Origin: Phycisphaerales bacterium
Lineage (GTDB): Bacteria; Planctomycetota; Phycisphaerae; Phycisphaerales; UBA1924
NCBI GenBank assembly: GCA_022843045.1
Contig: JALHOJ010000013.1
Span: 1-64,000, forward strand
Length of the DNA: 64,000 nt
Direction: 5' to 3'
Numbering within the stretch: the stretch's first letter is position 1; the number at the start of each line of letters is the position of its first letter. The position numbers were made by a program, and so were the translations under genes. Positions 8,992-44,116 of the stretch are shown here, piece after piece. The notes below the pieces were generated by a model that had not been told where the DNA came from, searched no databases, and saw only the letters and a program-made list of their open reading frames with translations.

Positions 8992-10602
8992 TCAGAGCTT
9001 GCGGTCGAGCAAGCGGTATTGGATGGCTTCGGTGAGGTGGTGGACCTGCACCGTGGCCGCGGCTTCGAGGTCGGCGATGCTTCGGGCCAATCTGCGAACC
9101 TTGTCGTAGGCGCGGGCAGAGAGGCCCAGCTGCGACATGGCTTCGCCCAGCAGGTTGCGGCACGCGTCGTCGAGGGATGCGAACTGATCGAGTTCGCGGC
9201 CTGACAGTCTTGCGTTGGGCGTGGTGCCTTGCCGCGCGGTGGCTCGCTGGCGGGCGGCGGCTGCGAGGGAGCGCATCTGGGCGGTGTCCATGCCCCGGGG
9301 ACGGTTGTCGGGGCGGCCGCTGCTGGTGGCGGAGAGGTCCTTGAAGGGCACGGCGGGGGCTTCGACGTGCATGTCGATGCGATCGAGCAGGGGGCCGCTG
9401 AGTTTTTCGAGATACCGCTCCATGGCGCGCTTGCCCACCTCGCCCGGCGCCACGTCGCCCTTGGGTGTGGGGTTCATCGCGGCGACGAGCATGACGTTCG
9501 CCGGGAATGTGACGCTGCTGTGTGCGCGCGCAATCGACACCTTGTGATCTTCCAGCGGCTGCCGCAGTGCTTCCAGCACGTCGCGGTCAAACTCGGGCAG
9601 TTCGTCCAGGAAGAGCACGCCCAGGTGCGCGAGGCTGATTTCGCCCGGCCTTGGGACCATGCCGCCGCCCACCAGCGCGGGCAGGCTCGCGGAGTGGTGC
9701 GGGCTGCGCACGGGTCGCGAGGTGATCAGGCCTTGTCCGCTGGGCAACTGGCCCGCGGCGGAGTAGATCCGCGTGATTTCGATGGCTTCGTCGGGCGAGA
9801 GCGTGGGCAAGACGCCCGGCAGGGCCTTGGCCATCATGGTCTTGCCCGTGCCTGGCGGGCCCAGCATGATGAGGTTGTGCCCGCCCGCGGCGGCGATGAC
9901 GATGGCACGCTTCACGCCTTCCTGTCCGCGCACGTCGCCAAAGTCCACCGGCGCGCGGGTTTGAGAGAGCAGGCCGGCCACGTCGAGCGTGGGCGTGGGC
10001 GCGAGGTCGAGCGAGCCGGCGACGAGGCCGACGACTTCGCTGAGCGTGCGCACGCCGTAGACCTCCAGACCTTCGACGATCGCGGCCTCGCTGGCGTTCT
10101 CAGCGGGCACGATCACGCCTCGCGCGCCGCGCTGCTTTGCGAGGGACGCGAGGGCGATCACCCCTCGGATCGGGCGAAGGCGACCGTCGAGGGCGAGTTC
10201 GCCCGCGAGCAGGAACTGGCGTAGGTCGATGCCGTCGATCTGGTTGGGGTCGCGCTCCTGGCCTGGCTGCACGAAGCCCATGCGCTGGGCGGGGCCGATG
10301 GCGAGGATGCCCTGCACCGCGAGCAAGCCCACGGCGATGGGAAGGTCGTACATCGGACCTTCCTTCTTCACGTCTGCGGGCGCGAGGTTGATGATGATGC
10401 GGCCGTTTGGCCAGCGGTAGCCGCTGTTGGTCATCGCGCTGCGGACGCGCTCGACGGACTCCTTGACGGCAGCATCGGGGAGGCCGACGACCGTGGCCCG
10501 ATTCTCGGAAGACGTGGTTTCGGCCTCGCTGAAGTCGACTTCGACTTCGCAGGGGAGGGCGTTGATGGCCTGAAGGAGGTAAGACTGGACCCGCGCGAGC
10601 AT
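8992..10602 (-). CDS. comM: YifB/ComM-like Mg-chelatase-family AAA+ ATPase
   Basis: A 536-residue protein. The start at 10602 (MLARVQSYLLQAINALPCEV) is chosen because this is the family's standard N-terminus; the open frame upstream to 10674 has no similarity. The N-terminal 170 residues form the Lon-like ChlI domain (TVVGLPDAAVKESVERV, NLAPADVKKEGPMYDLP). The ATPase core has Walker A GPPGTGKT, Walker B LGVLFLDELPEF and an Mg_chelatase C-terminal domain ending in ARAYDKVRRLARSIADLE. In Haemophilus and Vibrio ComM is a helicase that promotes branch migration during natural transformation. No competence operon surrounds it here, but a TfoX-N protein lies at 31.5 kb and pilus genes follow. Confidence 0.92.
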   Translation of the reverse strand: MLARVQSYLLQAINALPCEVEVDFSEAETTSSENRATVVGLPDAAVKESVERVRSAMTNSGYRWPNGRIIINLAPADVKKEGPMYDLPIAVGLLAVQGILAIGPAQRMGFVQPGQERDPNQIDGIDLRQFLLAGELALDGRLRPIRGVIALASLAKQRGARGVIVPAENASEAAIVEGLEVYGVRTLSEVVGLVAGSLDLAPTPTLDVAGLLSQTRAPVDFGDVRGQEGVKRAIVIAAAGGHNLIMLGPPGTGKTMMAKALPGVLPTLSPDEAIEITRIYSAAGQLPSGQGLITSRPVRSPHHSASLPALVGGGMVPRPGEISLAHLGVLFLDELPEFDRDVLEALRQPLEDHKVSIARAHSSVTFPANVMLVAAMNPTPKGDVAPGEVGKRAMERYLEKLSGPLLDRIDMHVEAPAVPFKDLSATSSGRPDNRPRGMDTAQMRSLAAAARQRATARQGTTPNARLSGRELDQFASLDDACRNLLGEAMSQLGLSARAYDKVRRLARSIADLEAAATVQVHHLTEAIQYRLLDRKL

Positions 10603-10845
10603 GGAAAAGGATAGGGCGTTGTTTGGTTGGGTTGGAGGATACGGAAGGCATGCCGGCAAGAGGCATCCGGGCATCGATTGGGCGGTTTATGCCGTCTGGG
10701 AAGCGTCACGGCCGGTTGCCCATGTTGCCCGGAAGGAGCGGCGTGAACTGGGCGGTTTTTGGGACCGATGACGAGGAGTCGGCCTCGCGTTGCGGCGAAC
10801 GGCCAGCTTGATCGCACTTGACCACTCTTCCCACGGGAGACTCCG

Positions 10846-11904
10846 ATGGACCTGCACCAGATTCTCAAGACGGCGTATGAACTCGGCGCGTCGGACGTCC
10901 ACCTGATTGGCAACAACCCGCCCGTGATGCGCGTGAACCAGGTGATGACGCCCATGGAGAAGACGGGCGTGATCAGCAAGGAGCAGGCTCGCGCGTTCTT
11001 TGACCAGATGAGCAGCCCGGAGACGAAGGCGACGTTTGAGCGCCAGAAGGACGCGGACTTCTCGTACTTCGTCGAGGGGATGGCCCGCTACCGCGTGAAC
11101 GCCCACTTGCAGAAGGGCATGGTCGGCCTGGCCATGCGCATGATCAAGACCAAGGTGCCGCCGCTGCAGGCGTTGAATCTGCCGGAAGTCATCGCCCGCC
11201 TGACGTACCTGCCCCGCGGCCTCGTGCTCGTGACGGGCGATACGGGTTCGGGTAAGTCGACGACGCTCGCCGCGATGATCGAGGCGATGAACCAGCGGTA
11301 CAAGAAGCACATCATCACGCTCGAGGACCCGGTCGAATATGTGTTCGAGAGCAAGCAGTGCGTGCTCGAGCAGCGCGAACTGGGGCAGGACATGCCCAGC
11401 TTCGCCAGCGGCCTCAAGCACGCCTTGCGTCAGGACCCCGACATCATCCTGGTGGGCGAAATGCGCGACCTTGAAACCGCGGCCCTCGCGATCTCGGCGG
11501 CGGAAACCGGCCACTTGGTGCTCAGCACCCTGCACACCGTCAACGCCAGCCAGACGGTGGAACGAATCATCGACATGTACCCCAGCACGCAGCAGAACCA
11601 GATTCGCTCGATGCTGGCCAACACGCTGCAGGCCGTCGTCAGCCAGACGCTGTTCAGCCGCACGGATCGGCCCGGCATGATCCCCGCGGTGGAAACGCTT
11701 CTTTGCACGCCCGCCGTGCGCAACCTGATCCGCGAGAACCGCACGTTCGAAATTCCCAACGTCATCGAAACCAGCCGCAACATCGGGATGTGCAGCCTGG
11801 ACAGCAGCATCGCGGAGCTGTACTTCAACGGCTACATCAGTCGCGACGACGCAATCGCGCAGGCCGCATTCCCGGACAAGCTGGAACGTCAGCTGGCGGC
11901 GTGA
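10846..11904 (+). CDS. pilT: type IV pilus retraction ATPase PilT
   Basis: A 352-residue protein that matches PilT end to end: MDLHQILKTAYELGASDVHL at the N-terminus, Walker A GDTGSGKST at residues 131-139, the Asp box around 155-165, Walker B DIILVGEMRD around 199-208, and the His box TGHLVLSTLHT around 221-231. The retraction-specific motif AVRNLIREN, a variant of AIRNLIRE, is present near residue 287. It powers pilus retraction at the cytoplasmic side of the inner membrane. GGGAGA precedes the ATG. It heads the pilus block; no pilB extension ATPase lies in the window. Confidence 0.95.
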   Translation: MDLHQILKTAYELGASDVHLIGNNPPVMRVNQVMTPMEKTGVISKEQARAFFDQMSSPETKATFERQKDADFSYFVEGMARYRVNAHLQKGMVGLAMRMIKTKVPPLQALNLPEVIARLTYLPRGLVLVTGDTGSGKSTTLAAMIEAMNQRYKKHIITLEDPVEYVFESKQCVLEQRELGQDMPSFASGLKHALRQDPDIILVGEMRDLETAALAISAAETGHLVLSTLHTVNASQTVERIIDMYPSTQQNQIRSMLANTLQAVVSQTLFSRTDRPGMIPAVETLLCTPAVRNLIRENRTFEIPNVIETSRNIGMCSLDSSIAELYFNGYISRDDAIAQAAFPDKLERQLAA

Positions 11905-11908
11905 GTGC

Positions 11909-12064
11909 AGTGACGAAGTGACGAAGTGACGCAGTAACGCAGTAACGAAGTGGTCCGGCGCACTGGCGTGCGTCTCACGAGGAGAACGAGGAGCGGCGAA
12001 CACAAACCGGCGTGCAAGCGGCGAAGCACTTCGTCTCTTCGTCACTCCGTCTCTTCGTCTCTTC
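11909..12064. repeat. octamer-tandem hairpin element between pilT and pilC
   Basis: The left arm has five octamers in a row: AGTGACGA, AGTGACGA, AGTGACGC, AGTAACGC, AGTAACGA. After about 80 bases a right arm reads CTTCGTCT CTTCGTCA CTCCGTCT CTTCGTCT. The arms are complementary with mismatches. Translation through the right arm produces the false N-terminal extension of the pilC frame (FVSSSLRLFVSSS). Confidence 0.75.
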
Positions 12065-12074
12065 TTCCCCACCC

Positions 12075-13301
12075 ATGCCCAACTACAAGTTCCAAGTTCG
12101 AACCAGCAGCGGTCAGGTGCAGACGGGCGTGCTATCCGCGGACAGCGCGGGCACGGCAGCGACGATCCTGCGCAATCAGGGCGCGCACATCCTGTCGCTC
12201 ACGGCCCAGGCGAGCATGGGCGGCGCGGGCGGCCTTCTCGGCAAGTTCAAGGACATGAACGCCGGGAAGCCCTCTCAGAAGCAGGTGCTGGACTTCACGA
12301 CGCAGCTGGCGGTGATGATCCGCGCCGGGATCAACCTGCGCGGCGCGCTCGACGGCATCGCGGAACAGACCGAACACTTGGCCTTCAAGCGCGTGCTGAT
12401 GCAGCTCAAGCAGGAAGTCGAAGGCGGCAAGCAGTTCAGCGAGGCCATCGCCAAGCATCCCAAGCTCTTCAACCCGCTGTACATCAACATGGTGAAGGCG
12501 TCGGAAATGTCCGGCTCGTTCAGCAAGATGCTCGACCGCATCGCGACGTACATGCACCAGGAAATCGAGACGCGCAAGATGGTCGTGGGCGCGGCGATCT
12601 ACCCGGGCATCATCGGCACGCTGGCGGTGGGCGTCACCGTCTTCCTGCTGACGTTCGTGTTGCCCAAGTTCGGCGCGGTCTTCCAGGGCAAGGAGGACGT
12701 GCTGCCCTGGGCAACCAAGTTCCTGATGGCGCTCAGCAAGTTCATGGTGCAGAACTGGTACTTCATCGTCGCGGCGATCCTCGCGCTCGTGGGCGTGATG
12801 TGGGCGTTCCTGCGGACGGAAGTGGGCAGCTTCTGGTTTGACAAGATGAAGCTGACGATTCCCGTCGTCAGGACGATGTTCCGCTCGCTCTACATCTCAC
12901 GCAGCCTTCAGACCATGGGCCAGCTCATCAACGCGGGCGTGCCCATGCTCGACACCCTCTCGATCACCGCGGACATCTCGGGCAACGCGCTCTTCAGGGG
13001 CGTCTGGAAGAAGGTGCACGCCGCAGTCAAGCAGGGTCGCAAGATCACGCAGGCCCTCCAGAAAGACACAACCCTGCCCCGAGCCGTTGTGCAGATGATC
13101 AGCGCGGGCGAAGAGTCCGGAAAGCTGGGCGAGGTGCTGGACGAGATCTCGGCCTACTACCAGCGCCAGTTAAAGGACCAGATCAAAGCGGTTACCAGCA
13201 TGATCGAGCCCATCATGATCCTCGCGATGGGCACAGTCGTTGGATTCATCGCCATGGCCATCATCCTGCCCATCTTCAAGATGAGCTCGATCGTGAAGTA
13301 A
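12075..13301 (+). CDS. pilC: type II secretion/type IV pilus inner-membrane platform protein PilC (GspF)
   Basis: A 408-residue protein. The start MPNYKFQVRTSSGQVQTGVL is the family's normal N-terminus; an upstream in-frame ATG at 12012 lies in the repeat and is rejected. Two T2SSF domains (about residues 75-195 and 280-400) each carry the helical bundle and a transmembrane segment, as in PilC/GspF. Motifs include FTTQLAVMIRAGINLRGALD and PRAVVQMISAGEESGKLGEV. It anchors the pilus motor ATPases in the inner membrane and sits directly downstream of pilT. Confidence 0.94.
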   Translation: MPNYKFQVRTSSGQVQTGVLSADSAGTAATILRNQGAHILSLTAQASMGGAGGLLGKFKDMNAGKPSQKQVLDFTTQLAVMIRAGINLRGALDGIAEQTEHLAFKRVLMQLKQEVEGGKQFSEAIAKHPKLFNPLYINMVKASEMSGSFSKMLDRIATYMHQEIETRKMVVGAAIYPGIIGTLAVGVTVFLLTFVLPKFGAVFQGKEDVLPWATKFLMALSKFMVQNWYFIVAAILALVGVMWAFLRTEVGSFWFDKMKLTIPVVRTMFRSLYISRSLQTMGQLINAGVPMLDTLSITADISGNALFRGVWKKVHAAVKQGRKITQALQKDTTLPRAVVQMISAGEESGKLGEVLDEISAYYQRQLKDQIKAVTSMIEPIMILAMGTVVGFIAMAIILPIFKMSSIVK

Positions 13302-13361: not shown

Positions 13362-14075
13362 ATGCAAGCCATGCGACGTGCACGCACCATCTCGTTGATT
13401 CGTGATCTGTCCGGAGCGCCCGCGAGCATCCGCCGCGGACGACGCGGCTTCACGCTGCTCGAAACGCTCATGGCGCTGGTCATCGTGGGCGTAGGCGTGC
13501 TGGCGTTCGTGGACGCTCAGGCCAGCTTCCATCGCAGCAATGCCTGGTCGAGCCAGGCGGCCACGGCGATGCTTCTGGGCAACGAGATCCGGGCCCTGAC
13601 GGAGCGGCTGCCTCGACACGATCCCGTGACGGGCCTGACTACGGCCGCGGGTTGGGGCAGCGAAGCGGGCGAAACCGACATCCTCGACATCGACGACCTG
13701 GACGATCTTGACGGCGTGCGATTCGGCTCGGGCGGCACCTTCGTCGGGCCCATCGACGCGTTTGGCAACGTGATTCCGCAGATCGCGACGGACGGCAGCG
13801 TGATCATGAACGGCAACGACCCCGTGCCGCTCGAAGGGTGGAGCCAGCGGATCATCGTCGAGAAGGTTGACCACTACAACTTCAACCAGGTGCGGGGCGA
13901 CTACTACCAGCAGACGGCGAGTGCGCAGTTGCCGGCGATCGCGCCGGACAGTTTCCCGTTGCGAGTGACCGTGTTCGTGGAGTTCACGCCTCTGAACACG
14001 GGCGTCTCTCAGGAGATCACGCGGATGAGCTGGGTCGTGCCGCCCAAGACGGTGCGGTCGGCGGCATCGCCATGA
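13362..14075 (+). CDS. prepilin-like protein with type IV N-terminal methylation motif (PilV-like)
   Basis: A 237-residue protein with an unusually long basic leader (about 30 residues) followed by RRG/FTLLETLMALVIVGVGVLAF, the prepilin peptidase site with Glu at position 5 of the mature protein. The rest is a predicted globular domain without recognised family and with an acidic stretch (ILDIDDLDDLDG). An alternative ATG at 13371 would shorten the leader by three residues. It lies 60 bases after pilC and is followed by the PilX-like gene, which fits a minor pilin or pseudopilin. Confidence 0.85.
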   Translation: MQAMRRARTISLIRDLSGAPASIRRGRRGFTLLETLMALVIVGVGVLAFVDAQASFHRSNAWSSQAATAMLLGNEIRALTERLPRHDPVTGLTTAAGWGSEAGETDILDIDDLDDLDGVRFGSGGTFVGPIDAFGNVIPQIATDGSVIMNGNDPVPLEGWSQRIIVEKVDHYNFNQVRGDYYQQTASAQLPAIAPDSFPLRVTVFVEFTPLNTGVSQEITRMSWVVPPKTVRSAASP

Positions 14076-14141: not shown

Positions 14142-17051
14142 ATGAGCACGTCGCAGGAACGCAATTCGAATCTGCCCTTCTTCGGGTCGCCGCCGCTGCG
14201 GAGGCTTTCGAGCGCCGTGGGGCTGCTGCGCATGCGCGCGGGAACCGCGCTGCCGGCGGAGAAGAAGCGCCGCCGCCGAGGCGTTGCTGCGATCCTTGCC
14301 ATGATGTTCCTCATCATGTTCGGCTCGCTCTCGGCCGCCATGGCAATCGCCAGCCGAGGCAACATCACCACGGCGGCGACGCACCTGCACGTCATGCGTG
14401 CCCAGAGCGCGGCGGAGACGGGTCTTTCGGTCGCCGAGACGCGGCTGCGCGAGGCGGCGAGCCGGTTCCTGATGTCACACAGCGACGTGACGGGCGACTT
14501 TGGCTGGGACCTGTGGCGCGGACAACTTTCTGGATACTCAACGTACAGCGTGATTCCCGGCCGCACCGGCCCGCAGAACGCGGGAGCGCCCTCGGGCATC
14601 GCCCAGGCGCTGGCCCAGGCCCACGCCATGGACGCGAACGTCGTCGCAGCGATCGGGATCAACAGCGTGACCATTGCCAACGCCCCCGCGGGCACGAGCA
14701 CGAGCGTGTTCAGGGGTTCGCAGTGGGTGTACACGCCGGGCGTCGCGATCGCGCCGCAGGAAACCGGCACGAATCCGCCGCCGCCCTTGTCGTATCAAAT
14801 CACGTACGCGCCGCTCGCCAACGGGACGGACGTGCGCGTGATCGTGACGGGGTATGACTTCAACTACAACCGCGGCGGGCAGCCGATCTCGCGGACGATC
14901 AGCAAGGACTTCCGCGTCACCAAGCGCGTGAACCACGCCCTGATCAGCCCATCGCGCGTGATGCTGGGCAAGAACGTCCAGATCATCGGCGACCTGGGCC
15001 TGCGGTACGACGACATCGAGTTCAACAACGGCGATCCGCTCGTCACTCGCAGTGACTTCAAGAACCTCGACAACGGACTGGACTCCAAGCTCGACGCGTT
15101 CTTCGACGCACTCAAGCAGAACGGCGCGGACCCCGACGGCGATAACCGCCTCCGCACCAACCATCCCGGCGAGAGCAGCGTGCTCGAGGGCGTGACCGAG
15201 GACTATCAGAGCGACACGGGCACCAACGACACGCCCTTCGAGGATGTCACCAACGACGGCTACGTCGATGAGTTTGACATCTTCATCAAGCACTTCGACG
15301 GCAACAACGACGGACGCGTCGCCGCCTCGGAGTTCACCACCGGCGGCGGCCAGTTGCGCGATGCCGACCTCTTCAACCTGATCGACTCGAGCGATCCCGA
15401 CCGCAACCGCAACGGGCGCTACGGGTTCATCGACGCCAACGGCAACGGTCGCCTCGACGGCACCGAACCGTTCGTTGACGTCACGGGTGGCGAGAACCTT
15501 GACCAGATCCTCGGATACATGGACGGATACCTGGACCGGCGCGACCGCTACGTCAAGATGGTCGGTGGCCTGATGTTCAAGACCGACATGAACGACTGGG
15601 AATCGGAACTGGGCGACGTCCAGGACAAGATCCAGGGCGCGATTCGCCCCGGCAGCGGCAACTCGCCCCAGACCTACAACGCCAGCGACGAGGATCTGCC
15701 CGAGCTCTCCGCCGACAACTTCGTCACCGACCGCAACAGCCTCCAAGCCGCGGCCAACGGCCAGCCGTTTCTCACGCAGATCGCCAGTCCCGCGGCGGTG
15801 CCTGGCTTCACGGCGGTCGCGCAGACGCTCTCGGCGGACGCAAACCTCGATCAGCTTCCCGACAACCACGCGACGGCATACTTCGAGAAGATGCCGTTCA
15901 ACAGCCCCAACTTCAGCGACTACTACTACCGCCCGGTCTTCCGCAACATCGTCTTCCGCGATGTGGAAATTCCCGTCGGCACCAACGCGCTGTTTGAGAA
16001 CTGCTGGTTCATTGGCGTGACGTGGGTCCGCACCAGCCCCGACAACACGCACATCATGTTTGGCGAGTACGGCAAGCTCAAGCTCGACCCCAGCACGAAC
16101 CGGCCGATCCCAAACATCGCCCGTCGCATCTACGGCGATAACGCGGGCGAGACCAGCTATCCCACGATGCTGCCCTCGACGGCGACGCCGCCCAACCAGA
16201 TGATCCTGATGGCCAACGCGCCGACGTATCTCGACAAGGGCGACATCCCTGCGAATGAAGTGCAGTACGTGCAACCGACCAACGGCTTCGGCTACAACGA
16301 CCTGCCCGAGCCGCTGGTCGTGAACGGGCGGCGCATCACGGACACGAAAGAGATCGCCAACAACATCCGCTTCCACAACTGCCTGTTCGTGGGCAGCATC
16401 GTCAGCGACTCGCCCAACGGCTATACCCAGGCCCGCAACAAGATCCAGTTCACGGGCAGCACGCGCTTCGCCCAGCAGCATCCGGACTACCCGACTTCGA
16501 GCCAGTACAACCCGCAGTCGGCCGACATCGACATGATCAAGCGCAGCAGCATGATGCTGCCGGGCTATTCGGTGGACATCGGCGCGTTCAACAGCCCCAC
16601 GACGCAGAACGTCGCGCTGCAGGGCGCGGTGATCGCGGGCGTGCTCGACATCCGCGGCAACGCAGACATCAACGGCGCGCTGCTGCTCACGTTCAAGCCC
16701 GAGTTTGGCGAGGGGCCCATGGTGGACATCACAGGTCAGCCCGTGGGCAACCCTGCATCGTTCAACACCACGCTGGGCTACTTCGGACCAGACGACGGCG
16801 ATGAGGAGTCCCTCGATCCTAACACCCTGCCGATCGTCAATGGTCAGCGCATCGTCGGCTACGACACCAACGGCGACGGCCTGGCCGACGCCCCGGCGAC
16901 CGGTCCCCAGCCGGCCGGTTCGACCGTCGTGCCGTTCAACGGATATGGCAAGGTGACGCTGCGCTGGGATCCGAACATGCGCCTGCCCAACGGCATCCGC
17001 CTGCCCATGCAGTTTGAACCCCTGAGCTCGACGTACCGGGAGGGTCGATGA
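14142..17051 (+). CDS. very large PilX-like minor pilin with EF-hand-like calcium loops
   Basis: A 969-residue protein. Residues about 43-75 hold a PilX-type hydrophobic helix after a basic run (KKRRRRGVAAILAMMFLIMF), without the Glu-5 of major pilins. It continues with QSAAETGLSVAETRLREAA, the usual PilX pattern. Residues about 365-450 contain several EF-hand-like loops: DVTNDGYVDEFD, DGNNDGRVAASE and DANGNGRLDGTE; another, DTNGDGLADA, lies near the C-terminus. PilX proteins are normally about 200 residues, so most of this protein is an extra extracellular region. It overlaps the next gene by four bases. It may cap the fibre or mediate calcium-dependent adhesion; this is inference. Confidence 0.75.
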   Translation: MSTSQERNSNLPFFGSPPLRRLSSAVGLLRMRAGTALPAEKKRRRRGVAAILAMMFLIMFGSLSAAMAIASRGNITTAATHLHVMRAQSAAETGLSVAETRLREAASRFLMSHSDVTGDFGWDLWRGQLSGYSTYSVIPGRTGPQNAGAPSGIAQALAQAHAMDANVVAAIGINSVTIANAPAGTSTSVFRGSQWVYTPGVAIAPQETGTNPPPPLSYQITYAPLANGTDVRVIVTGYDFNYNRGGQPISRTISKDFRVTKRVNHALISPSRVMLGKNVQIIGDLGLRYDDIEFNNGDPLVTRSDFKNLDNGLDSKLDAFFDALKQNGADPDGDNRLRTNHPGESSVLEGVTEDYQSDTGTNDTPFEDVTNDGYVDEFDIFIKHFDGNNDGRVAASEFTTGGGQLRDADLFNLIDSSDPDRNRNGRYGFIDANGNGRLDGTEPFVDVTGGENLDQILGYMDGYLDRRDRYVKMVGGLMFKTDMNDWESELGDVQDKIQGAIRPGSGNSPQTYNASDEDLPELSADNFVTDRNSLQAAANGQPFLTQIASPAAVPGFTAVAQTLSADANLDQLPDNHATAYFEKMPFNSPNFSDYYYRPVFRNIVFRDVEIPVGTNALFENCWFIGVTWVRTSPDNTHIMFGEYGKLKLDPSTNRPIPNIARRIYGDNAGETSYPTMLPSTATPPNQMILMANAPTYLDKGDIPANEVQYVQPTNGFGYNDLPEPLVVNGRRITDTKEIANNIRFHNCLFVGSIVSDSPNGYTQARNKIQFTGSTRFAQQHPDYPTSSQYNPQSADIDMIKRSSMMLPGYSVDIGAFNSPTTQNVALQGAVIAGVLDIRGNADINGALLLTFKPEFGEGPMVDITGQPVGNPASFNTTLGYFGPDDGDEESLDPNTLPIVNGQRIVGYDTNGDGLADAPATGPQPAGSTVVPFNGYGKVTLRWDPNMRLPNGIRLPMQFEPLSSTYREGR

Positions 17052-17716
17052 TGCACACGCCGCGATCCATGCGAGGCAATGACATGAGCACGCCCATCGG
17101 TCGGAACATCGCACGGCGCGGCTTCAGCATGGTCGAAGTGCTGGTGGCGCTGGTGATCTCCTCGCTCGTCATGACGGCGGCGATCACGGCCCTGGACACG
17201 TCTTTCAAGGCGTACAAGGCCACCACCGAGAGCGCGTCGACCAACGTCGTGGCTCGCATGGTCGTCACGCGGGTCGCCTCGCTGGTGCGCACGGGAACCG
17301 ACTTTGGCCCGTTCCCCACCGACGTGCTGGACGCGGACCTGAACCCCATGCAGGCCACGTTCATGGAGTTCCGCACGTTCAACGATCCCGCGACCGAGTC
17401 GTCGACGGTGATCCGCCTCGAACGACGCGATCCCGACAACAACGGCTTGGCTCCGTTCGAACTCTGGTACGTCGAGACGCGCATCGCCAACGGCGCGGTC
17501 ACGCTGGCCGACCAACGCCCGCTGCTCACGGGGCTGGATGACCTGCGCTTTACGCTCGAGTACGACGTGGGCCCGCGCCTTCGCAAGGCGACGATGGACA
17601 TGACCGTCCGCCCCAACGACTTCCAGGACGCCTCGTTCTCCGTGCAGTCAGTGGACACGCCCAGCATCCGGCTGGTGACGTCGATGGCACCACGGAAGCT
17701 GGATGAAGTGAACTAA
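17048..17716 (+). CDS. prepilin-like protein with type IV methylation motif (PilW-like)
   Basis: A 222-residue protein with a basic leader and cleavage motif RRG/FSMVEVLVALVISSLVMTAA, Glu at mature position 5. The C-terminal domain resembles PilW/GspJ-type minor pilins only loosely. The ATG at 17048 overlaps the TGA of the PilX-like gene (ATGA), so translation is coupled; the in-frame ATG at 17084 (MSTPIGRN) is a possible alternative start giving a shorter leader. It is the last gene of the pilus block and converges on mraZ. Confidence 0.85.
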   Translation: MMHTPRSMRGNDMSTPIGRNIARRGFSMVEVLVALVISSLVMTAAITALDTSFKAYKATTESASTNVVARMVVTRVASLVRTGTDFGPFPTDVLDADLNPMQATFMEFRTFNDPATESSTVIRLERRDPDNNGLAPFELWYVETRIANGAVTLADQRPLLTGLDDLRFTLEYDVGPRLRKATMDMTVRPNDFQDASFSVQSVDTPSIRLVTSMAPRKLDEVN

Positions 17717-39150: not shown

Positions 39151-41499
39151 TTACTGGCCGTCGGTGGGCACGCTGGTCAGGATGCTCTGGTTTTCAGCGT
39201 TCCAGCGGCTCATGAACTGGTTCCAGGCGGTGATGTTGCGGACGAAGCCGGTGGGGCCCGCCCACAAGCCGTTGTGGGGAGAGGTGAAGTAGGCTTCGAT
39301 CTGGTCATCGGTGAGCGGGGCGTAGGCGGGGGCGAAGCTCTCGGCGAGGCTGGTGGGCACGGTCACGGCGTAGGACTCGGGCTGCTGCTCGAGCCAGCTA
39401 TCGCTGGGGCCGGCCGAAGATTCGACCGAGGCGGTCTGGTAGTCGGAGGGCTGCGCGGCGGCCTCCTGGGCGTAGGTGCTCAGGCCGGCGTCCTGGTGGA
39501 ACTCGAGCGTGGGCTCGGGCTGGGCTTCGGGCTGGGCCTGGGCCGTCTGCTGCGCGGGCATCATGTAGTCGTACTGGGTGTTGTCGACTTCCCAGGAGGG
39601 CTCGGCGTGGGGATCCGCGCTGCTGATCAGGTCGTCCTTGGCCTTGACCTGGAGCAGGCTGCCGGCGGCTTCCTTGTTGATGACGCGATCCAGGAAGGAG
39701 CGGTTGAGGCCGGGGCGCTTCTCGCCCGTGATGCGTTCACGCAGGTGCATGAGTTCGGGCTGGACGGGGCTCAAGGTCAGCGAGCGCTCGATCTTGTTGA
39801 GGGCGGCTTCGGTGTTGCCTTCGCGGACGAGGCGGTCGGCCTCGAGGTTGAGGTTGTTGGTCAGGCGTTCGCGGCTGAAGGAGAGGACGCCCTGGCGAGC
39901 GCCGGCGGTGATGGTGTTCACGTATTCGCCCGCGCGGCTGCCGCTGTCGGTGATGGTGGCGTCGTTGAGGATGGTGGGCGTGATGAGGAAGATGATTTCG
40001 TTGCGGCTGGTGGTGTCTTCCTTGCCCTTGAAGGCGGTGCCCAGGAAGGGAATGTCACCCAGCAGCGGGACCTGCTTGCGGGTGCTGGTGACGCTCTCGC
40101 GGAACAGACCGCCCAGGACGACGGTCTGGCCGTCGCGGACGATGATGTTGGTGGTGATCTCGTTGGTGATTTCGTCGGGGATCGTCACCGCGCTGCCGCC
40201 GATATCGGTGACCTGACGGATCGCAGCTTCGGCGACCTTGGGCTTCAATTCCATGCGGATCATGTTGTCGTTGGTGACGAAGGGTCGGAAGTAGAGGCTC
40301 GTGCCCGTATCGAGGAACTCGACGGTCTGCGTCGTGCTGGTGTCGGTGGCGGTGGTGCTGAGGTAACCGACCTTACGACCGACGAGCACGCGGCTGCTCA
40401 TGCGGTTGAGCGCCATGATCTTCGGGTTGCTGAGGACGGTGGTGTCGGTGACTTCGTCCAGGGCGCGGATGAAGACGCCCACGTCGTTGGACAAGATACC
40501 GATCTTGAGGCCGCCGTTGCCGGTGGCGACGTTACCGACGGTGCTCACTGCGGCGGTGCCGCCGCCGTCGGCGGGGGCCTGGTTGCTCGCGGTGGCGGGG
40601 GCGAGCAGACCAGTGACGGCGCCCAAGGGACCCGTGGCGAGCTGGCCGAAGTTCATGTCGGCGACGATGCTGAAGTCCACGCCCAAGGCGACGGCGTCGT
40701 TGAGCTGAGTCTGCAGGATGGTCGCCTCGACGAGCACCTGCGCGGGGCGGGTGTCGATCTGGCGGATCATTTCTTCGACCTGAGCGACGTTCTCTTCAAA
40801 GTCGTAGACCACCAGCATGCTGCCGTTGGCATAGTCCTCGCCGCCGATGGGAACTTCGGACATGGAGGCGAAGGCGCTGGCCTTGCTGTTGACCTTGATC
40901 TGGCCTTCGGGGCTCAGGAGGGGCTTGACGAATTCGGCTGCGTCAACGGCGGCCATGTGGTTGAGGTTGACGACCTTGGAGATCTTGACGCGGTTGGCGG
41001 CCTGGATCTTCTGGAGTTCTTCCAGGGTGTAGATCTTGATGAAGTTGCCTTCTTCGATGAAGCCGTAGCCGTTGACGTTGAGGATGGCGTCGAGGGCTTC
41101 GTAGAAGGTGACGCCGTAAAGGTTGGCGGTCACGCGAGCGGAGACGTCCTTGCTGGCGATGATGTTCTTCTGGCTCTGGATGCTGAGCATCTCGAGCACG
41201 TTGGCGAGGTCTTCGTCCTTGACGTGCAGGTCGACGGTCATGTTGTCATCGACGCGCACTTCGCTCTCTCCATCCAGCGGGGCGCTCTCTGAGGCAACGG
41301 GGGTGCTCGGGGGCACGAAGGACTGGCTGACGCTCGCGGGAGCGTTGTCAACCTGCTCCGACCCGTCCGCATACATCGGCTCTTCCGCCGGCTGGAAGCT
41401 CTGGGCCAGGGTGGTGGTCGTGCCCGCGGCCAGCGCGAGCATCAAGCCCAAGAGGGCCGTCTTGTCCACGTTCTTCGAATTCAGGAACTTGCTCGCCAT
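39151..41499 (-). CDS. secretin (type II/type IV pilus PilQ-GspD family) with C-terminal extension
   Basis: A 782-residue protein. Signal peptide in residues 12-33, ending TTTTLAQ. Residues about 85-160: STN-like domain (VDLHVKDEDLANVLEMLSIQ). Residues about 170-250: a secretin N domain. Residues about 255-512: secretin channel (VLVEATILQTQLNDAVALGV) with the signature VPLLGDIPFLGTAF and FLITPTIL. From residue 520 an extra 260 residues follow: a TPR-like helical pair near 545-595, then a Gln/Pro/Ala-rich region and a final AYFTSPHNGLWAGP segment. Start 41499 is preferred; the frame upstream to 42723 is antisense and non-coding. It forms the outer-membrane pore of a pilus or secretion system, but is not next to the pil genes. 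Confidence 0.9.
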   Translation of the reverse strand: MASKFLNSKNVDKTALLGLMLALAAGTTTTLAQSFQPAEEPMYADGSEQVDNAPASVSQSFVPPSTPVASESAPLDGESEVRVDDNMTVDLHVKDEDLANVLEMLSIQSQKNIIASKDVSARVTANLYGVTFYEALDAILNVNGYGFIEEGNFIKIYTLEELQKIQAANRVKISKVVNLNHMAAVDAAEFVKPLLSPEGQIKVNSKASAFASMSEVPIGGEDYANGSMLVVYDFEENVAQVEEMIRQIDTRPAQVLVEATILQTQLNDAVALGVDFSIVADMNFGQLATGPLGAVTGLLAPATASNQAPADGGGTAAVSTVGNVATGNGGLKIGILSNDVGVFIRALDEVTDTTVLSNPKIMALNRMSSRVLVGRKVGYLSTTATDTSTTQTVEFLDTGTSLYFRPFVTNDNMIRMELKPKVAEAAIRQVTDIGGSAVTIPDEITNEITTNIIVRDGQTVVLGGLFRESVTSTRKQVPLLGDIPFLGTAFKGKEDTTSRNEIIFLITPTILNDATITDSGSRAGEYVNTITAGARQGVLSFSRERLTNNLNLEADRLVREGNTEAALNKIERSLTLSPVQPELMHLRERITGEKRPGLNRSFLDRVINKEAAGSLLQVKAKDDLISSADPHAEPSWEVDNTQYDYMMPAQQTAQAQPEAQPEPTLEFHQDAGLSTYAQEAAAQPSDYQTASVESSAGPSDSWLEQQPESYAVTVPTSLAESFAPAYAPLTDDQIEAYFTSPHNGLWAGPTGFVRNITAWNQFMSRWNAENQSILTSVPTDGQ

Positions 41500-42202
41500 G
41501 GGAAGGACCTCGCATGAAACGGGGCACGTGCCCCTGGGTTTGGACCGGCTTGGCCTGGGTGGTGGGACCGTCCGCGGTCGCCGACGGAACACCCGCCGGG
41601 CCACGCATCGGTCTGTGTCGTCTGGCGAACGGGGCGACTTTGGGCGAACACGCGAAAAAGCCCCAGTGGCGGCGCGGGCAACGGACTTTCGCAGGGTGCG
41701 GCGCGGGAGATGCGCACCGGCAAGGGCGGCGCGGGAGGAACGCGCGAGGGCGGGGATGCGTTTGCAGGCGTGGGTTTTCGGGCGTTGGAGTGGGCTTGGG
41801 GGGGAGCGTGACCCGAGCAGATGCCAAGTGGGGGAAAAAGGGAAAAGCGGGTCCAGGAATGAGGGCGGGTCCGAGATCGGGGGCTGCCGGAGAGACTGGA
41901 TTCGCTGCAGAGAGCGCGGAGGAGGGAGAGGGGATTGAGGTTTTGGTTGAGTTGATTGGGGCTCACGCACTGCCCTTCCCCAATCCGCGCCAATCCGCGG
42001 CCACTCTTCTTCTGCGTGCACGTTGTGATCTCGCTGGAGGATTCGGGGGTGCTCCGTGTGCGACGCTCCCTGACGGTCGCGTTTCGCGGGGCTAACGGGG
42101 GATGGGAAGAGCGCGAACAATGAGCGGATCACGCCTGAGGGCCGCGGGCGTTCGCGAACGGACGGATGCGCGGCGATGCAGGCGTGAGGTAAGGAATTGC
42201 AC
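41500..42202. other. divergent intergenic region between secretin and S8 protease
   Basis: This 703-bp stretch holds no supported gene; frames on both strands are Arg/Pro/Ser-rich and lack motifs. It contains the promoters and leaders of two divergent genes and a degenerate copy of the dispersed hairpin family at about 41907-42021, with arms GCAGAGAGCGCGGAGGAGGG and ending CTCTTCTTCTGCG. I could not fix promoter elements. Confidence 0.5.
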
Positions 42203-44116
42203 GTGAACAAGATCGCGTTCTTGGTTGTCGCGGCCGGGCTGGCCGTAGTGTCGCAGCAGCAGGTGGCCTTCGCGCAGCAGGCTGCGCCGGCGCAGGGCGA
42301 GAAGAAGGTGGTGCGGACGGCCGACGACCTGCCCACGCACGAGTATGAGCTTGAGCTCAAGCCCAGCGAGTTCCTCGACGCGGGCGAGCCGGTGTTCATG
42401 GCGTTTGTGAAACAGGTGAAGGCGAACATCGAGAACGAACTGGCGACGCTGGACATCCAGGACAAGACGACGCTGCGGGATCGGCACAGTCTGCTGGCGC
42501 AGATCGCGCTGCTGGAAGGCAACGACGCGGCGGCGCGGACGAACCTGGAGGCGGCGCGGCGGAACGAACTGAAGGAAGCCAATCGCCTGATGATCGGGCA
42601 TGTGCCCGAGTCGATGCTGGCGGGCAAGCAGGCGGCGGGTGAGATGAAGCTCACTGATCCGGCGTTCATCGCGGCGTTTGAGAAGTCGCTGGCGGGACGC
42701 TGGAGCGAGTTGCCCTGGGACAAGGTGTCGGATCAGATCAAGCAGCAGAAGGGGCGTGCGGAACTGATCACGCGCGAGCTGGTGATGGGCCAGGTCAAGA
42801 TGGGCCTGGACCCGGTGTGGGAGCAGGGCAACAAGGTGCTGAGCGGGGACATGGCGCATGCGCTGGTGTCGATGCGGATCGCGCTGCAGTATCAGTTGCC
42901 GCTCAACGCGACGATCGTGAAGGTCGCGGACGGCATCATCAAGAAGAACGCCACGGAGAGCGTGGACACATGGACGCCGACGCTGGCGACGCTGACGGGC
43001 AAGGAAGGCGGGAAGCCGGTGGTGGTGGGCGTGTGGGACAGCGGGATCGACGCGGCGGTCTTCTCCGACAACCTGTGGACCAACACCAAGGAAACCGCGA
43101 ACGGGACGGACGATGACAAGAACGGGTTTGTCGACGATCTGCACGGGATCGCGTTTGACCTTGAGGACAACCGGATTCCCGAACTGCTGCACCCTGTGAC
43201 GGAGATGAAGAACGATCCGGCGCTGGTGACGAAGCACATGAAGGGGATGATGGACGTGCAGGCGAGCATTGACAGCCCCGAGCGCAAGGCCCTGATCGCG
43301 TACATGCGCGATCTGGACGCGACCAAGTCGGGCGAGTTCATGGAGGACCTGGGCCTGTACGGCAACGTCGCGCACGGGACGCACGTGGCGGGCATTTCGC
43401 TGTCAGGGAATCCGTACGCGAAGCTGCTGGGCGTGCGCCTGACGTTTGACTTCAAGTCGATTCCGCGGGTGACGCCCAGCGTCGAGCAGGCTCGCAAGAC
43501 GGCGGCGAACTATCGCGCGACGGTGGAGTACCTGAAGGCCGCGGGCGTGCGCGTCGTCAACATGAGTTGGGGCGGTAGCAAGCAGGACGTGGAGACGCAG
43601 CTTGAGCAGAAGGGCGTGGGCAAGGACGCGGCGGAGCGCGATGCTCTGGCTCGCGAGATCTTTGACACGATGTCCAAGGGGCTGCGCGAGGCGATGGCCA
43701 GCGCGCCCGAGATCCTGTTCGTCGCCGCGGCGGGCAACAGCGACAACAACAACGCGTTTGTGGAATTCGCGCCCAGCGGGTTCAACCTTCCCAACATGGT
43801 GACGGTGGGCGCGATCGACAGCAGCGGCAAGCCCACGAGCTTCACGACCTTTGGCGACAACGTGACGCTGTATGCGAATGGCTTTGAAGTTGATTCGTTT
43901 GTGCCGGGCGGGGGTCGGATGAAGTTCAGCGGCACGAGCATGGCGGCCCCGCAGGTGACGAACCTGGTGGGGAAGATGCTGGCGCTGAAGCCTGATCTGA
44001 AGGTCGCGGAAGTGATCGACCTGCTCAAGCGCGGGAGCGATCCGCTGGCGGGCAAGGAGGGGCGGCTGGTGATCAATCAGAAGAAGACGATTGGTCTGCT
44101 TGCGAAGCCGAACTGA
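42203..44116 (+). CDS. secreted subtilisin-like serine protease (S8 family)
   Basis: A 637-residue protein. It starts at GTG 42203 (MNKIAFLVVAAGLAVVSQQQ), with AAGGAA six bases upstream; a TTG two codons earlier touches the Shine-Dalgarno and is less likely. A signal peptide ends near VAFAQQ. The catalytic triad is in VVGVWDSGID (Asp), NVAHGTHVAGISLSG (His) and KFSGTSMAAPQVTN (Ser), with the oxyanion Asn in FVAAAGNSDNNN. The N-terminal 250 residues form a helical pro-region, and the insert between Asp and His contains an acidic NGTDDDKNGFVDDLHG loop, common in calcium-binding subtilases. Likely acts outside the cytoplasm. Confidence 0.93.
   Translation: MNKIAFLVVAAGLAVVSQQQVAFAQQAAPAQGEKKVVRTADDLPTHEYELELKPSEFLDAGEPVFMAFVKQVKANIENELATLDIQDKTTLRDRHSLLAQIALLEGNDAAARTNLEAARRNELKEANRLMIGHVPESMLAGKQAAGEMKLTDPAFIAAFEKSLAGRWSELPWDKVSDQIKQQKGRAELITRELVMGQVKMGLDPVWEQGNKVLSGDMAHALVSMRIALQYQLPLNATIVKVADGIIKKNATESVDTWTPTLATLTGKEGGKPVVVGVWDSGIDAAVFSDNLWTNTKETANGTDDDKNGFVDDLHGIAFDLEDNRIPELLHPVTEMKNDPALVTKHMKGMMDVQASIDSPERKALIAYMRDLDATKSGEFMEDLGLYGNVAHGTHVAGISLSGNPYAKLLGVRLTFDFKSIPRVTPSVEQARKTAANYRATVEYLKAAGVRVVNMSWGGSKQDVETQLEQKGVGKDAAERDALAREIFDTMSKGLREAMASAPEILFVAAAGNSDNNNAFVEFAPSGFNLPNMVTVGAIDSSGKPTSFTTFGDNVTLYANGFEVDSFVPGGGRMKFSGTSMAAPQVTNLVGKMLALKPDLKVAEVIDLLKRGSDPLAGKEGRLVINQKKTIGLLAKPN

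Follow-up and report, generated by a model that had tools for sequence, protein, structure and literature searches.

In described type IV filaments, the tip complex of minor pilins is capped by a subunit without Glu5 (PMC10191384), and modular pilins are widespread, numbering >1,200 proteins in 264 architectures with adhesive modules known among them (PMC8179133; adhesive modules also in PMC10191384). Here we describe a 969-residue protein, P0001, encoded by a large gene in a 64,000-nucleotide stretch of a Phycisphaerales bacterium (GenBank assembly GCA_022843045.1, contig JALHOJ010000013.1, positions 1 to 64,000; hereafter the window). A first-pass annotation had described it as a PilX-like protein with EF-hand-like loops, possibly a calcium-dependent adhesin, that takes the place of a missing PilY1-type tip protein. 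On balance, we favour reading P0001 as a modular minor pilin of the tip type (PilX/GspK/ComZ position) that belongs to a retractable type IVa pilus and presents a beta-solenoid with a calcium-loop insert.

Among known systems, Thermus thermophilus ComZ (PDB 6QVI) combines, as predicted for P0001, a large beta-solenoid with a GspK-like minor pilin, has minor-pilin neighbours and is proposed to sit at the tip (PMC6561018). It differs in length (a 534-residue PDB chain versus 969 residues for P0001), and the available text of PMC6561018 makes no mention of calcium. GspK/XcpX and the PilX/PilK position resemble P0001 in the cap without Glu5, the I-like and J-like pilin neighbours, the modular insert and the calcium sites, the cap role and the sites being putative in P0001 (PMC10191384, PMC6211770, PMC8179133), but the GspK insert is an alpha-domain and the GspK model has a length of 307. 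In Streptococcus sanguinis PilB/PilC a pilin likewise carries an added functional module, and these proteins are presented at the tip and adhere in a metal-dependent way, as is supposed for P0001 (PMC8179133); the modules there are vWA or lectin modules, whereas P0001 has a predicted solenoid with a calcium-loop insert and no recognised Pfam domain. The literature searches made returned no description of the Phycisphaerae family to which P0001 belongs, and within those searches the order-wide combination of a GspK-position pilin, a solenoid and a multi-loop calcium insert appears undescribed.

A conserved family with a pilin-like N terminus

The 969-codon open reading frame (ORF) is present as annotated (Table 1) and represents a true protein family, conserved over its whole length. 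P0001 and relatives from 19 loci, mostly of Phycisphaerales or Phycisphaerae, form a 20-member alignment (A1) that is colinear throughout, with 50–63% identity to P0001; an artefact of fused ORFs is ruled out by these full-length colinear relatives. Of 101 genomes sampled from the order, 80 carry the gene; the genome of the window has a single copy. Searches with the A1 profile found it in 8 of 149 genomes sampled from the phylum, every one inside the class, and in 58 of 150 sampled from the class, some by short stretches only.

P0001 begins, like type IV pilins, with a basic leader ending in Gly and a long hydrophobic helix: the sequence reads RRRRRG-VAAIL, with the arginine-rich stretch ahead of a single hydrophobic helix. 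In a 47-row family alignment, Gly47 was kept in 43 of the 44 rows with a residue there, and position +5 after it was Leu in 41 rows, Val in 2, Met in 1, Pro in 1 and a gap in 2 (Glu, 0 of 45). The leader resembles a class III signal, after which cleavage would be expected. Because the arginine-rich stretch precedes one hydrophobic helix, the rest of P0001 probably lies outside the cytoplasm, which speaks against a cytoplasmic C-terminal part, the counter-case raised in the first-pass annotation. In the C-terminal half, Cys621 (nucleotides 16,002–16,004) and Cys747 (16,380–16,382) lie in NCxF motifs, are invariant in 20 of 20 rows of A1 and could possibly form a stacked pair or a disulfide. The same two cysteines are kept in seven short relatives (A3, see below), where they stand 26 residues apart, or about one coil.

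Calcium-type loops in an acidic insert

Seven calcium-type stretches were identified in P0001. Three of them had been named at first pass: DGNNDGRVAASE (residues 386–397), DANGNGRLDGTE (431–442) and DTNGDGLADA (908–917, the loop itself spanning 908–916). Added to these are stretches at residues 330–344, 368–379 (DVTNDGYVDEFD), 420–431 and 461–468. A relaxed 12-residue EF-loop pattern of our own design matched P0001 three times, a count of at least three being reached in 0 of 5,000 shuffles; a strict PROSITE-like pattern matched once, which 32 of 5,000 shuffles also reached.

These loops are conserved column by column in the 47 rows. D330, D334, E344, D368 and D468 are invariant, and D376 (46 rows), D379 (45), D386 (46), E397 (46), D420 (45), D461 (45) and D465 (45) nearly so. 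Across 42 representatives with <90% identity, taken from the same rows, the mean frequency of the commonest residue was 0.93 in ligand columns, 0.55 in other loop columns and 0.61 over all columns, the division into ligand and other columns being our choice and the third position of loop A1 (T370, a Thr in 33 of the 47 rows) being scored as other. At least one loop was found by either pattern in 44 of 47 family members (none in L011, L013 and L034). The EF-hand search suggested at first pass gave matches in some relatives: Pfam EF-hand_7 was found in 8 of the 20 A1 sequences, with E = 2.1e-4 at best, whereas P0001 itself had no such match at E ≤ 1. The family has 12-residue loops with conserved ligands, as expected of EF-hand or dockerin-type sites, and the loops of P0001 may bind Ca2+.

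A fixed operon and its cognate PilC

The pilus is supported as type IVa, with the P0001 gene in its minor-pilin operon, because the PilT neighbour scores above its NCBIfam cut-off (Table 1). Both small pilin neighbours read GFxxxE, whereas the large protein lacks Glu5, and the last 4 bases of the large gene, its stop included, are shared with the start of the PilW-like gene (ATGA). The order pilT-pilC-pilV-large gene-pilW was constant across 46 loci (L002–L047), as far as the stretches reach. PilC was found in 45 of these, PilV in 45, PilW in 44 and PilT in 37, each gap coinciding with the end of a stretch (L005, L010, L012 and L044, and L021–L027 with short flanks). A scan for promoters and terminators gave nothing above shuffles.

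Presence of the gene follows a particular PilC. A cognate PilC (E ≤ 2.8e-102) was found in 80 of 80 genomes with the large gene, and 18 of the 21 genomes without it had only distant PilC relatives (E ≥ 1.3e-95). The other three (G034, G038 and G091) have a close PilC at a contig end, on the strand that places the large gene past the end; in one genome (G035) the large gene and a close PilC are both present, far apart. The first-pass proposal is supported in part: P0001 is a minor pilin of PilX/GspK type whose C-terminal part is large and whose calcium-type loops are conserved, and it is encoded in the minor-pilin operon of a type IVa pilus.

Other genes were noted in the window and the genome. 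A YifB/ComM-type AAA ATPase (window positions 8,992–10,674, minus strand) is divergent from pilT; ComM was found beside PilT in 0 of 46 related loci within reach of their flanks, so this adjacency is local as far as those flanks reach. The window that holds the pilus operon also encodes a 1,190-residue secretin (39,151–42,723, minus strand); it is best described as PilQ-like (TIGR02515, E = 3.4e-61, below cut-off), and its N-terminal ~490 residues had no Pfam match. The genome as a whole has 14 places with PilT/PilB-type ATPases and five secretins, many of them on other contigs.

Table 1 Features of the P0001 gene and its operon (window positions, 5' to 3')
Feature	Positions	Strand	Evidence
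PilT retraction ATPase	10846–11904	+	TIGR01420, 433 bits (cut-off 319)
PilC/GspF platform protein	12012–13301	+	PF00482, E = 2.5e-60
PilV/GspI-like minor pilin, 237 residues, with Glu5	13362–14075	+	N_methyl, E = 1.4e-6; PilV model, E = 9.5e-8, below cut-off
Whole gene, 969-residue modular minor pilin P0001	14142–17051	+	ORF; full-length relatives
Long basic leader ending RRRRRG, residues 1–47; true start codon uncertain	14142–14282	+	Sequence; conservation from about residue 45
N-terminal pilin helix, residues 48–107, hydrophobic part first	14283–14462	+	AlphaFold2; 47-row alignment
Pilin alpha/beta domain, residues 108–262	14463–14927	+	AlphaFold2 strands 217–258; VIA minor-pilin chains
First solenoid turn, residues 263–289, preceding the insert	14928–15008	+	Alignment with short relatives
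Acidic calcium-loop insert (putative), residues ~290–545, net charge −32	15009–15776	+	Loop patterns; conservation; EF-hand_7 in relatives
DPDGDNRLRTNHPGE stretch, residues 330–344 (DPDGDNRLR..E)	15129–15173	+	D330, D334 and E344 in 47/47 rows
Loop A1 DVTNDGYVDEFD, residues 368–379	15243–15278	+	Column conservation
Loop A2 DGNNDGRVAASE, residues 386–397, 6 residues past loop A1	15297–15332	+	Pattern and conservation
Overlapping loops B1/B2 DRNRNGRYGFIDANGNGRLDGTE, residues 420–442	15399–15467	+	Pattern and conservation
Half-loop B3 DGYLDRRD, residues 461–468	15522–15545	+	Column conservation
Beta-solenoid-like region, residues 580–905, invariant Cys 621 and 747	15879–16856	+	Alignment; AlphaFold2; VIA
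Conserved tail, residues 906–969, loop DTNGDGLAD (908–916), YREG-type end	16857–17048	+	Alignments
PilW/GspJ-like minor pilin, 222 residues, with Glu5	17048–17716	+	N_methyl, E = 5.3e-7

Short relatives and the origin of the insert

In sister orders the syntenic relative is short, L055 reading PilT-PilC-PilV-(548 residues)-PilW. None of 16 short ORFs (477–672 residues) has a canonical loop by either pattern, and one weak DxDxSG was noted at L063; among intermediate ORFs (737–869 residues), 4 of 4 have at least one. In profile comparisons, A1 aligned from end to end with A3, the group of seven short relatives, with the loop region skipped (E = 1.8e-38), A3 matched a second short group of eight (A4) at E = 2.9e-38, and A1 matched A4 over the pilin part only (E = 5.7e-13). 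Since the short sister-order relatives have the pilin and the solenoid without canonical loops, the ~250-residue calcium insert is, judging from these alignments, an expansion specific to the lineage, and for the same reason the calcium loops are not the whole story of the protein. A simpler forerunner of the calcium region is possible, because the seven A3 members have, at roughly the corresponding position, a DExGNRIYSxxDE-type stretch that is looser and not canonical.

The short forms also bear on the question whether P0001 starts as a PilX protein. PilX_N (PF14341) matched 4 of 7 members of A3 (best E = 6.3e-7) and 7 of 8 of A4 (best E = 1.2e-8), versus 0 of 20 members of A1 at E ≤ 1, P0001 included; one 805-residue ortholog in the order reached 7.6e-4, below cut-off. 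Together with the profile links from A1 through A3 to A4, these matches show the PilX relationship by way of the relatives and not through P0001 itself: its N terminus is homologous to short proteins that match PilX_N, and it has no such match of its own.

Other arrangements were also seen. In sister-order genomes, two or three solenoid-type PilX-like pilin genes (477–646 residues) lie next to one another at L061 (4,286–9,045), L062 (3,937–7,518) and L056 (2,832–6,242). At L059 (4,081–12,894) two minor-pilin cassettes follow in a row, pilT-pilC-pilV-477 residues and then pilV-742 residues-pilW, the second with a calcium loop.

Predicted fold

A PDB sequence search with A1 listed polcalcin EF-hands (E = 0.34) and SV2 (E = 3.8) at best, and one short relative searched alone gave none. 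AlphaFold2 (AF2) models had a mean predicted local distance difference test (pLDDT) of 58 for A1, and a mean pLDDT of 60 with a predicted template modelling (pTM) score of 0.61 for residues 548–969, and are usable for outlines only. In outline, the model has a helix at 47–107, followed by an alpha/beta domain that ends at 258, a stretch of mixed structure and, from residue 594 on, numerous short strands. When its parts were compared by VIA, the minor pilin 7o5y ranked first for residues 76–261 (Z 6.6, root mean square deviation 3.1, 96 residues aligned; 6qvf, Z 6.1), and residues ~304–388 resembled EF-hands of calmodulin/troponin type (Z 3.2–3.7). Parts of 524–969 resembled right-handed beta-helices, namely pectate lyases, ice-binding proteins and the PfbA adhesin (Z 4.6–6.4), and the separate, low-confidence model of 548–969 again gave mainly beta-helices (Z 3.4–6.6). 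Region by region, the VIA comparison returned pilin-fold chains for 76–261, EF-hand chains for 308–388 and right-handed beta-helix chains for 533–969 (Z 3.2–6.6 overall).

Discussion

As a modular tip-type pilin, P0001 would, if it behaves like GspK, ComZ and modular pilins, insert into the inner membrane N-in/C-out and be cleaved after its basic leader. It may be the first to assemble, joining the adjacent PilV-like and PilW-like pilins in a tip complex whose P0001 bulk is pushed out first; Glu5 may be absent because nothing packs above it. A rigid beta-solenoid would then be displayed beyond the fibre, inside which, in this order, a segment of ~250 residues containing two or more compact pairs of EF-hand-like loops would have grown. 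Ca2+ outside the cell could fold and stiffen this acidic insert, and the Ca2+-loaded tip could bind a surface or a polysaccharide and pass on the force of retraction. Attachment is the likely role, and the calcium-dependent adhesin envisaged at first pass is plausible; a ComZ-like DNA receptor is the main functional alternative.

Several points weigh against this reading. Tip position, calcium binding and adhesion are each reached indirectly, and searches with P0001 gave nothing over threshold in Pfam (E ≤ 1), NCBIfam or PDB. The EF-hand spacing is unusual, loop A2 following loop A1 after 6 residues. Over residues 46–263 the VIA comparison also listed chains that are unrelated, among them polycystins, phage coat proteins and actin capping protein, at Z 3–4, so the pilin Z of 6 is only supportive. 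Foldseek with the full AF2 model returned no PDB match at E ≤ 0.001 (best E = 0.34), and given the weak models, the fold assignments come down to middling Z values of a kind commonly seen. Lastly, PF05567 (PilY1) had no match in P0001, its own genome or 149 genomes of the phylum, but 14 control genomes were silent as well, and the absence of PilY1 is therefore not used as proof.

The last point bears on the proposed replacement of PilY1. PilY1 went undetected in the genome by PF05567, with the same silence in the controls; that P0001 takes its place is not proven, and in diderm type IVa pili the tip minor pilins normally lie beneath PilY1, not instead of it (PMC10191384). The PilY1/PilC adhesin is a large tip protein, as P0001 is proposed to be, and its EF-hand-like calcium site, of the type Dx(D/N)xDGxxD, governs the function of the pilus (PMC13190605), but PilY1 is no pilin and has a beta-propeller (PF05567). 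We offer only tentatively, and consider rather doubtful, the idea that a capping minor pilin and a calcium-switched PilY1 adhesin are merged here in one polypeptide, a calcium-gated solenoid adhesin in which extracellular calcium sets tip stiffness or the balance of extension and retraction and for which PilY1 was never needed.

Calcium could instead be purely architectural, serving dockerin/TSP3-like folding outside the cell, with P0001 a core assembly subunit that primes the pilus and binds no ligand of its own. This we hold to be unlikely, though not strongly so: core minor pilins are conserved and prime assembly (PMC10191384), GspK binds calcium too (PMC6211770) and presence of the gene tracks the pilus operon, but a solenoid of >300 residues and a 250-residue insert far exceed the needs of priming, and the small pilins on either side are of the ordinary kind.

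Somewhat less probable is a tip solenoid that binds extracellular DNA for natural transformation, as in Thermus ComZ, where calcium would either bridge the acidic surface of P0001 or do no more than stabilise its fold. ComZ was the top PDB match of the A3 profile (profile positions 123–212 on ComZ 74–163), but at a non-significant E of 0.068, and the match was gone with the A4 and A5 profiles. The net charge of mature P0001 is −39 (family median −54), which is unfavourable to a DNA receptor. ComEC is encoded in the genome, but its presence does not discriminate, as it occurs in 76 of 80 genomes with the large gene and 20 of 21 without. A type II secretion-like pseudopilin, in other words a GspK homologue acting on secreted cargo, is improbable: GspK is the NCBIfam model most touched by family members (6 of 20, best E = 0.13) and the best score of the PilC neighbour is to GspF, under the cut-off of that model, but P0001 reaches only 11.6 bits to GspK (NF037980, residues 46–107, E = 0.14) against a cut-off of 130, and the adjoining ATPase is PilT/PilU above cut-off and is present in 37 of 37 loci that extend to it.

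Read as a modular tip-type pilin, P0001 would provide an order-wide, single-gene handle on how a lineage with no PilY1 detected could attach by type IV pili. Its short forms without canonical loops, intermediate forms and long forms would also make up a natural comparison series for the role of calcium at the pilus tip.
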